This document shows, piece after piece, positions 1-47,250 of a DNA stretch of 47,379 bases. The translations under genes were made by a program, and so were the position numbers. The first letter of the stretch is position 1; each line of letters starts with the position of its first letter. Below the pieces are notes generated by a model that was not told the DNA's origin, did no database searches, and was given only the letters and a program-made list of their open reading frames with translations. This stretch comes from Candidatus Caccalectryoclostridium excrementigallinarum (GTDB lineage Bacteria > Bacillota > Clostridia > Christensenellales > UBA3700). The stretch is from NCBI GenBank assembly GCA_018714485.1, contig DVNJ01000017.1:1-47379 (forward strand), read 5' to 3'.

Positions 1-1690
<1,690 letters not shown>

Positions 1691-1855
1691 TTATTTCTTT
1701 CTCTATGCGGTCTTTTTCCTAAAAACCTTTTAGATTCTCAGTTCAAACGTAATATACAAGAAAACATTTACCATGCTCTTCTCGTATGATATCGTTTTGA
1801 TCGTCTACTTTCTATGCTATGCAGTTGTGAATGTGCAAGAGACGTTTCCGCCTCG
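1691..1855 (-). other. Leader/spacer between tRNA-derived repeats and 23S rRNA
   Basis: This is AT-richer spacer RNA just upstream of the 23S gene on the minus strand. Directly after the last CCA (1856-1858) is a hairpin of GAGGCG, GAAA loop and CGTCTC, matching hairpins that follow the CCA of the upstream units. A TTTGAACTGAGAATC stretch resembles the spacer/antitermination region that precedes rRNA in Firmicutes. No gene is seen. Confidence 0.5.
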
Positions 1856-1934
1856 TGGTGGGCTAAAGTGGACTCGAACCACCGCCATAAATGGCTTAGG
1901 TGCGGTCGGACTTTATCCCGAGGCTCTCGCCTCA
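1856..1934 (-). repeat. tRNA-Ile-derived repeat unit 1 (79 bp), possible tRNA-like RNA
   Basis: On the minus strand the last 29 nt are identical to the 3' end of the neighbouring tRNA-Ile: last T-stem/T-loop bases, acceptor 3' strand TTAGCCC, discriminator A and CCA. The first 49 nt are not tRNA-Ile. They hold a hairpin GAGGC-GAGA-GCCTC, then GGGATAA, which could pair with TTAGCCC at 6 of 7 positions. A small hairpin GCCAT-TT-ATGGC follows, and the unit then joins the T-arm. The unit could therefore fold as a reduced tRNA-like molecule with an acceptor, one hairpin, a T-arm and CCA. Function is inferred only. Confidence 0.85.
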
Positions 1935-2012
1935 TGGTGGGCTAAAGTGGACTCGAACCACCGCCAAAATGGCTTAGGTGCGGTCGGACTTTATCCCGAG
2001 GCTTTCGCCTCA
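1935..2012 (-). repeat. tRNA-Ile-derived repeat unit 2 (78 bp), possible tRNA-like RNA
   Basis: This is a tandem copy of the unit at 1856-1934, directly 3' of the real tRNA-Ile CCA on the minus strand. It differs at a few sites: the GNRA loop is GAAA instead of GAGA, and the small hairpin is GCCA-TTT-TGGC instead of GCCAT-TT-ATGGC. Both changes leave the stems intact. The last 29 nt are again identical to the tRNA-Ile 3' end including CCA. Confidence 0.85.
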
Positions 2013-2089
2013 TGGTGGGCTAAAGTGGACTCGAACCACCGACCTCACGCTTATCAGGCGTGTGCTCTAACCAGCTGAGCTATTAGCCC
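2013..2089 (-). tRNA. tRNA-Ile (anticodon GAT)
   Basis: The 77-nt cloverleaf on the minus strand has acceptor GGGCTAA/TTAGCCC, anticodon loop CTGATAA with anticodon GAT, T-loop TTCGAGT and an encoded CCA at 2013-2015. It lies 7 nt downstream of tRNA-Ala in the same transcript and upstream of the 23S gene. Its 3' 29 nt are duplicated twice immediately downstream. Confidence 0.98.
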
Positions 2090-2096
2090 TCGACCA

Positions 2097-2172
2097 TGGT
2101 GGAGAATAGGAGATTCGAACTCCTGACCCCCTGCTTGCAAGGCAGGTGCTCTACCAACTGAGCTAATTCCCC
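2097..2172 (-). tRNA. tRNA-Ala (anticodon TGC)
   Basis: The 76-nt cloverleaf on the minus strand has anticodon loop CTTGCAA with anticodon TGC and T-loop TTCGAAT. The acceptor is GGGGAAT/ATTCTCC with the G3:U70 alanine identity pair and an encoded CCA at 2097-2099. It is the first gene of the tRNA-Ala/tRNA-Ile/23S transcript. Confidence 0.98.
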
Positions 2173-2247
2173 GAAATGCGTGCATTTTAATGTACTTGCC
2201 GCAACTTTTCGCGGTGAAATTACCGCCCTATCGGTCACAGCCTTAAT

Positions 2248-2276
2248 ATAGTACCATTATTGAAAATGTTTGTCAA
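2248..2276 (-). promoter_or_regulatory. Sigma-A promoter of the tRNA-Ala/tRNA-Ile/23S operon
   Basis: The minus strand reads TTGACA (2276-2271), a 17-bp spacer and TACTAT (2253-2248), with predicted start near 2241. This is a near-perfect housekeeping promoter between the corA stop codon and tRNA-Ala. It leaves no room for a 16S gene in the transcript. Confidence 0.85.
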
Positions 2277-2304
2277 ACATATTCGACGGGAAATTTTATA
2301 ATTT

Positions 2305-3273
2305 TTACAGCAGCTTTTTGCGCTTTAAGACAAGGCAAATGACCACCACCGCGACCGCGGAAAGAGCGATAGCCAAGGCAAATCCCCAGACCTTTCCGCC
2401 GCCCGGGATCCAGGTATTCATGCCGAAGAGCGAGGCGATGAACGTGGGGATCGCCAGAATGAGCGTGATGATCGCGAGCGTCTTCATGATCGAGTTTTGG
2501 TTGTTGGAAATGACGGAGGCATAGGCGTCCATCGTCCCCGAAAGAATGTCCCTGTAGATCGTGCACATCTCGATCGCCTGCTTGGTCTCGTTGGCAACGT
2601 CTTCCAAAAGCTCCTGCTCTTCGTCGTACGCTACCAAAAAGCGGTTGTTCTTGATCGCGAGCAGGCGGGAGATGACCGCGTCGTTGCCGCTCAAAGAAGT
2701 GGCGAAATAGACGAGCGAATTTTCAAGGTCGAGCATTTGGATAAGCTCTTTGTTCTTGGTGGACTTATGCAGTTCGTTTTGAATGCGTCCGCTCGCCTTA
2801 TCTATCTGCTTGAGATAGCTGAGGAATCTCGCGGCGATGTTATAGAGCATCTGATAGAGAAAGCGCGTTTTTAAGTCGGTGCGGAAATTCTTCACCTTTC
2901 CGCGCACGAAATCGCGCAGCGCCGTGCTCTCGCGCAAAGAGACGGTCACGATCACGTTCTGCTTGATGAAGGTGCCCATAGGGATGGTGTAATAGGAATA
3001 ATAATCGTCCTCTTCGTCGATGACGGGCATGTCGACGATGACCATGAGATGATCGTCTTCCTGCTCGATACGCGAACGCTCCTCGTCGTCGAGGGGGGCT
3101 TTCAGGACTTCGTCCTCGATGCCCGTGAGCGAGCTGATGAGATCCACTTCCCTGTCGCTCGGATTGACAAGGTTTATCCAGCAATCTTTAACGGAAAATC
3201 CTTCCTGCTCGTAAACTTCGGGCAGGATAGCGCTGAGTTTGCCGTCGGAACCGCTCTTGAATATCTCGATCAT
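2305..3273 (-). CDS. corA: CorA-family Mg2+/divalent cation transporter
   Basis: The 322-aa protein has the CorA layout: a long acidic cytoplasmic N-terminal domain, a coiled alpha-helical stalk (about residues 130-260) and two C-terminal membrane helices (about 265-287 and 294-315). The signature GMN motif (FGMNTWIP) lies at the end of the first helix, and a basic tail ends the protein. CorA proteins are homopentameric channels for Mg2+, Co2+ or Ni2+. The ATG is preceded by a strong AGGGGGTG ribosome-binding site. It is transcribed alone from the promoter at 3411-3439. No terminator is obvious before the rRNA promoter, so some read-through is possible. Confidence 0.95.
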   Translation of the reverse strand: MIEIFKSGSDGKLSAILPEVYEQEGFSVKDCWINLVNPSDREVDLISSLTGIEDEVLKAPLDDEERSRIEQEDDHLMVIVDMPVIDEEDDYYSYYTIPMGTFIKQNVIVTVSLRESTALRDFVRGKVKNFRTDLKTRFLYQMLYNIAARFLSYLKQIDKASGRIQNELHKSTKNKELIQMLDLENSLVYFATSLSGNDAVISRLLAIKNNRFLVAYDEEQELLEDVANETKQAIEMCTIYRDILSGTMDAYASVISNNQNSIMKTLAIITLILAIPTFIASLFGMNTWIPGGGKVWGFALAIALSAVAVVVICLVLKRKKLL

Positions 3274-46635: not shown

Positions 46636-46778
46636 GTAAAAGCCATGTTGATCTCGTTTCCGAGTCAAGTAAAAGTCAGACCACTTCGGGATATAAACTA
46701 CGGTATCGAATATGATGCCGGTAACACCTTTGATACACAAATTAAAGAGCCGCGAGTTCAAACGCGACTCTGCTATGT

Positions 46779-47250
46779 CGGAGGGATTCGCCTTACAGCG
46801 AACGGACAGTAAATCTATATTCGGACAGACAAACTTTCGTCTCCGTTCGCGTGCAGCCCGTGTTATGCGCCCGCGCATATCACGGAGGTGCACGCCCTCG
46901 GAGGGATCCGCCTTACAGCGAACGGACAGTAATCTATATTCGGACAGACAAAATCTCGTCTCCGTTCGCGTGCAGCCCGTGTTATGCGCCCGCGCATATC
47001 ACGGGAGTGCACGCCCTCGGAGGGATTCGCCTTACAGCGAACGGACAGTAAATTTATGTTCAGACAGACAAGATCGCGTCTCCGTTCGCGTGCAGCCCGT
47101 GTTATGCTTCCATCATATCACGGTGGTGCACACCCTCGGAGGGATTCGCCTTACAGCGAACGGACAGCAATCTAAGTTCGAAGACAAGATCTCGTTTCCG
47201 TTCGCGTGCAGCCCGTGTTATGCTTTTAGCATATCACGGAGGTGCACGCG
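46779..47250. repeat. Four tandem ~119-120-bp structured repeats
   Basis: Units start at 46779, 46899, 47018 and 47137. Each opens CGGAGGGATTCGCCTTACAG and contains the inverted pair GCGAACGGA / TCCGTTCGC about 36 bp apart. A long interrupted palindrome follows (in unit 1, 46851-46893): GTGCA, CCGTG, TATGC paired with GCATA, CACGG, TGCAC. Units differ mostly in loops and stay paired in the stems. The array ends just before an IS30-like element. Period and spacing do not fit CRISPR. Confidence 0.88.

Follow-up and report, generated by a model that had tools for sequence, protein, structure and literature searches.

A tRNA-Ile-derived tandem array as a candidate structured RNA in the 23S rRNA precursor leader of a clostridial genus

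On the minus strand of the window (the whole 47,379-nt stretch analysed, from a 1.43-Mb draft genome in 33 contigs that belongs to an uncultured gut genus of Clostridia), two tandem units of 78 and 79 nt follow tRNA-Ile and precede the 23S rRNA gene, as the first-pass annotation had reported. On a modestly favourable balance of the sequence comparisons, the array appears to be a structured part of the 23S precursor leader, specific to this genus and derived from tRNA-Ile, that is maintained for its fold and a central motif and probably has a role in the folding or processing of the tRNA-Ile/23S precursor. Fold, motif, two-copy state and position are all kept across the four species that could be compared. 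In the proposed mechanism a tandem duplication would have taken in the 3′ half of tRNA-Ile together with the hairpin behind that tRNA in this family, and a new 5′ half would pair with the copied 3′ half. Each unit would then form its own rod, long and imperfect, closed at the base by GGG/CCC, joined to a single-stranded ACCA linker and flanked by a small hairpin. The rods would fold during RNA synthesis, with the ACCA linkers and hairpins the likeliest boundaries for cleavage or trimming.

The locus is read on the minus strand in the order tRNA-Ala, tRNA-Ile, unit 1, unit 2, third hairpin, 23S leader and 23S rRNA (Table 1), the array registering as a tandem repeat of period 78 with 97% matches and a score of 365 (TRF). 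The promoter-like sequence stands immediately 5′ of tRNA-Ala and is conserved in five genomes of the genus. Since corA adjoins this promoter and tRNA-Ala, with no 16S upstream, this rRNA transcript starts with the tRNAs; none of the six draft genomes of the genus yielded a 16S gene, and the 16S is unlinked from this 23S copy. The position of corA directly 5′ of the conserved promoter and tRNA-Ala is common to five genus genomes (window 2173-3273; L005, L006, L007, L008), and conservation across the genus covers the first transcribed bases, GGCTGT[GC]ACCGATA (window 2225-2247, minus strand), but not the remainder of the leader 5′ of tRNA-Ala. Elsewhere in the window four 119-bp tandem repeats, 89% alike, occupy 46778-47249 near the contig end, within a probably spurious ORF.

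Table 1. Features of the tRNA-Ile/23S locus, in window coordinates.
Feature	Position	Strand	Remark
tRNA-Ala (UGC)	2097..2172	-	first gene of the transcript
tRNA-Ile (GAU), CCA encoded	2013..2089	-	source of the 3′ half of the units
Unit 1, 78 nt	1935..2012	-	small hairpin 2011-1998 and rod core 1997-1935, ACCA end
Unit 2, 79 nt	1856..1934	-	small hairpin 1933-1920 and rod core 1919-1856, ACCA end
Unit 1 central conserved motif ACCGCACCTAAGCCATT	1968..1984	-	0-1 change in all eight units of four species
Unit 2 central conserved motif	1890..1906	-	sequence comparison
Third hairpin GAGGCG-GAAA-CGTCTC, 3′ of last CCA	1839..1854	-	
Conserved 23S leader segment TTGCACATTCACAACTGCATAG, boxA-like position	1817..1838	-	in relatives with and without units
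23S rRNA gene, 5′ part	1..1690	-	truncated by contig edge
Promoter-like TTGACA-17-TACTAT	2248..2276	-	consensus match and conservation only

Judged by its sequence, the 3′ half of the units is a copy of tRNA-Ile, both units ending in the exact last 29 nt of that tRNA (CGGTGGTTCGAGTCCACTTTAGCCCACCA), and the derivation from tRNA-Ile put forward in the first-pass annotation is borne out. The 5′ half partly reads as an inverted copy of the same tRNA-Ile region; in G001 GGGATAAAGTG..GACCTCAC when reverse-complemented gives GTGAGGTC..CACTTTATCCC, which matches GTGAGGTC...CACTTTAGCCC of tRNA-Ile. An alternative reading takes each unit as a decayed full tRNA copy, in line with the end-to-end alignment of tRNA-Ile to the covariance model of the units (R1) at 24-26 bits. 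The junction of CCA and hairpin had been described as common to tRNA-Ile and both units, which the comparison supports, and the repeating unit is best seen as a rod-CCA-hairpin appended behind the usual tRNA-Ile-CCA-hairpin of the family. The tRNA-Ile 3′ half is shared by the units of the window genome, G001 and G004, while those of G002 match the tRNA end no further than CCCACCA. Integrases that target tRNA genes usually leave direct repeats of a tRNA 3′ end as their footprint, a resemblance that would fit attachment-site scars left by integrating elements; this origin is barely credible given the absence in all four species of space for an integrase between corA and 23S, the length (72-84 nt) and conserved fold of the units and the divergence of the G002 units from the tRNA end beyond CCCACCA.

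All eight cores are predicted to fold into one long rod, in which a purine-purine mismatch separates the GGG/CCC base from a second helix of about six pairs, and short helices further in lead to an apical loop; ACCA follows each rod. In the window a small GNRA hairpin precedes each core, of 63/64 nt. The whole array was more stable than each of 200 dinucleotide shuffles (z -5.1), and the single cores of the window gave folding z values of about -3.7 and -3.9. The pairing of GGGATAA with TTAGCCC proposed in the first-pass annotation holds at six of seven positions, with an A.G mismatch at the fourth, but as a separate 7-bp acceptor-like stem it does not stand; the helix continues for three more base pairs (AGU/ACU), making the stem longer than described, and the proposed pairing is the lower end of an extended helix into which T-stem nucleotides are drawn. 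As claimed, the units contain the GCCA..TGGC hairpin, and the GAGGC-GNRA-GCCTC separators were confirmed as well. The reduced tRNA fold that the same reading had suggested fared less well, a tRNA-like structure with acceptor and T-arm forced being 8-12 kcal/mol worse than the single rod in all six units that retain a T-arm (z for the rod down to -4.7), while in G002 the T-arm has gone and the rod is kept. On this energy difference and the missing T-arm, a cloverleaf or an armless or D-armless tRNA was rejected as the preferred, conserved structure. In keeping with this, the units were not called as tRNA by ARAGORN or by tRNA models/Rfam, no known Rfam family scored above threshold on them, and an anticodon arm with a 7-nt loop is absent, the GCCA/UGGC-type hairpin having a loop of 3-5 nt and no fixed triplet. 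On these models the units probably do not fold as tRNAs. A composite fold in which unit 1 and unit 2 pair with each other gains 0-4 kcal/mol over two local rods and is thus about equally stable, which counts against reading the array as a leader element of separate rods; the composite was nevertheless rejected, its gain being small and a compensated change in G004 lying inside one unit, which fits local rods.

That change, GCUA:UAGU in unit 1 of G004 against GCCA:UGGU in unit 2, is one of several in which the stems are preserved between copies, as the first-pass annotation had held. In G002 nearly the whole of the rod stem and T-arm has been re-coded, with pairing, the GGG/CCC-ACCA base, the 17-nt motif (ACCKCACCTAAGCYATT) and the separator hairpin all kept. 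Here the helix UAAAGU:ACUUUA has become AUGCGC:GCGCAU (GCGCAG in copy b), and five pairs of the outer stem differ on both sides and still pair in one or both G002 copies (UA>AU, AU>UA, AU>GC, AU>CG, UA>CG), one of them being broken in copy b; one pair is C.A in G004. The separator hairpins are likewise re-coded with pairing preserved (GAGGC:GCCUC vs GCGAC:GUCGC), and GGG...CCCACCA is found in all eight units, even though little else outside the central motif escapes re-coding in G002. This is covariation that keeps pairs, as in a structured RNA under selection, seen in few species and mainly in one lineage; with most of the stem covariation coming from G002 and only four species compared, it may reflect few events.

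The 17-nt motif (ACCTCACCTAAGCCATT) has the same sequence in G001, in G002 and in one of the G004 copies, differs by one base in the window genome and the other G004 copy, and is the best-conserved stretch outside the tRNA-derived half. At fourfold-degenerate sites of the neighbouring corA, pairwise identity between these genomes is only 50-57%, a rate at which identity of 17 sites would arise by chance about once in 100,000 per pair, before allowing for the post hoc choice of the motif. No pairing partner for the motif within the operon was consistent between species, the best site being the transcript leader in the window genome (-18.2) and GUGAGGUC of tRNA-Ile in G001, G002 and G004 (-11.9). 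Elsewhere no conserved target stands out, matches with three mismatches being few and only slightly above a control pattern.

Exactly two units stand at the same position in all four species whose contigs cross the spot (the window genome G000, G001, G002 and G004, from a genus sample of six), with unit lengths of 72-84 nt; the contig of G003 stops 2 nt past the tRNA-Ile CCA and G005 has no matching stretch. The search of relatives proposed in the first-pass annotation has in this way recovered the unit, and the random variation in copy number that it named as a sign of slippage was not seen. A pattern scan of 84,980 species gave matches only in the three relatives' contigs (CAJFJA010000008.1, CALWHE010000013.1, CALWKO010000005.1). 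Other genera of the family have tRNA-Ile-CCA, the short hairpin and the leader without units, and R1 detected no unit in the 40 genomes from those genera or in about 390 further genomes of the order. Among 46 family genomes R1 matched only the window genome, G001 and G004, and among 396 order genomes the window genome and G001 only, G004 being outside that draw. These counts apply to units close to those of the window, since R1 scores G002 units (23-25 bits) much as it scores tRNA-Ile itself (24-26 bits), so that it cannot discriminate diverged units and missed G002 at genome scale. A viral collection gave a single chance match in unrelated sequence, and a dispersed MITE/REP hairpin element was rejected on finding a single locus in the genome. 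In three relatives a further, unrelated-looking rod follows the second unit (L005 1829-1890, L006 1827-1870, L007 1829-1895) that is absent from the window.

The array might instead be a neutral leftover, decayed tRNA-Ile copies multiplied by tandem slippage and homogenised by gene conversion. The two copies of one genome resemble each other much more closely than they do those of other genomes (concerted evolution), in three species the 3′ half changes along with tRNA-Ile, and only one locus is involved, so this account keeps a small but appreciable probability; set against it are the re-coded stems of G002 that still pair, the compensated change in G004, a motif invariant beside nearly saturated silent sites and the presence of exactly two copies in four species. 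The persistence of fold and motif in the re-coded G002 units makes neutral slippage alone, and equally an assembly artefact, unlikely as sources of the units. The reading as a leader element has its own difficulties, in that the identity within the tRNA-Ile 3′ half of the window genome, G001 and G004 could be due to gene conversion and the stems include the broken pair of G002 copy b and the C.A pair of G004.

A different use of the array would be as a folding switch that pairs with tRNA-Ile and delays or gates its maturation. Attaching the array lowers the predicted equilibrium probability of the tRNA-Ile acceptor helix from 0.96 to 0.21, 0.00 and 0.02 in the window genome, G001 and G004, respectively, while in G002 it remains at 0.91, so the property is not conserved; tRNA-Ile is also transcribed first and would fold before the array exists, and a switch is very improbable.

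Alternatively, RNase P might cut at GGG, with the 3′ side trimmed back to CCA, freeing the units as stable small RNAs with CCA ends that act in trans through the exposed 17-nt motif. Preservation of GGG...CCCACCA in all eight units and of a motif best conserved outside the tRNA-derived half would suit such RNAs. Cleavage at GGG is possible in that the bacterial enzyme accepts hairpins as substrates and makes contact with the RCCA end (PMC11143913), and the units have a stem with a 3′ RCCA as RNase P substrates do. Against this, the small hairpin abuts GGG, so that 0-1 nucleotides of leader stay unpaired, a poor arrangement for RNase P, and trans action through the motif is without target support; release as small RNAs is accordingly judged unlikely. 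The RNase P RNA of the genus is of type A (L085 1501-1823, minus strand; L084, L086), and its P15 carries CGGAAAA (GGAA) where the model has CGGGU (GGGU), in a part where the alignment is uncertain. With that uncertainty, the GGU motif that pairs with the tRNA RCCA is apparently without its U, and one of three RCCA contacts would be lost. Still less likely is the full combination of a new class of CCA-ended rod RNAs, arisen by tandem duplication and inversion of tRNA-Ile, released from the 23S precursor, acting via the exposed motif and, in one species, re-coded together across the array.

Read as a leader element, the array would represent the end of a tRNA gene turned into a different structured RNA within a ribosomal operon, with one genus displaying both the tRNA-matching and the diverged (G002) state of the units. 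Confirmation of processing would reveal a route from tRNA pieces to rRNA-precursor elements.

Compared with known systems, the locus shares with ordinary tRNA-bearing rRNA spacers the order tRNA-Ala, tRNA-Ile, short hairpin, leader and 23S seen in the rest of the family, and differs by two added rod-CCA-hairpin units and by a copy without 16S upstream. The Bacillus cereus pseudo-tRNA tRNA-Other is a decayed tRNA-like element inside a larger RNA, possibly recruited to a new role (PMC3399842). The units share that setting, but tRNA-Other adjoins a genomic island whereas they are tandem rods in a 23S leader. With RNase P hairpin substrates bearing RCCA ends they share a long stem ending in ACCA and differ in having a second helix abutting the 5′ side, their own cleavage being hypothetical. 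The E. coli tyrT/rtT region has 178-bp repeats carrying the last 19 nt of tRNA-Tyr. These repeats and rtT RNA are the nearest precedent, likewise placing tandem units with copies of a tRNA 3′ end downstream of that tRNA in one transcript, an arrangement found here behind tRNA-Ile, each unit with its 3′ end. Membership of RtT RNA (RF00391) was rejected, its covariance model giving no match in the window genome in a search that was positive in E. coli, and none at E up to 10 within this stretch. The units, at 72-84 nt, rod-shaped and in a 23S operon of Clostridia, form a different family, neither tRNA nor RtT RNA, in an arrangement of the tyrT/rtT kind, and if their processing were confirmed the little-studied question of the E. 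coli tyrT repeats would be revived.
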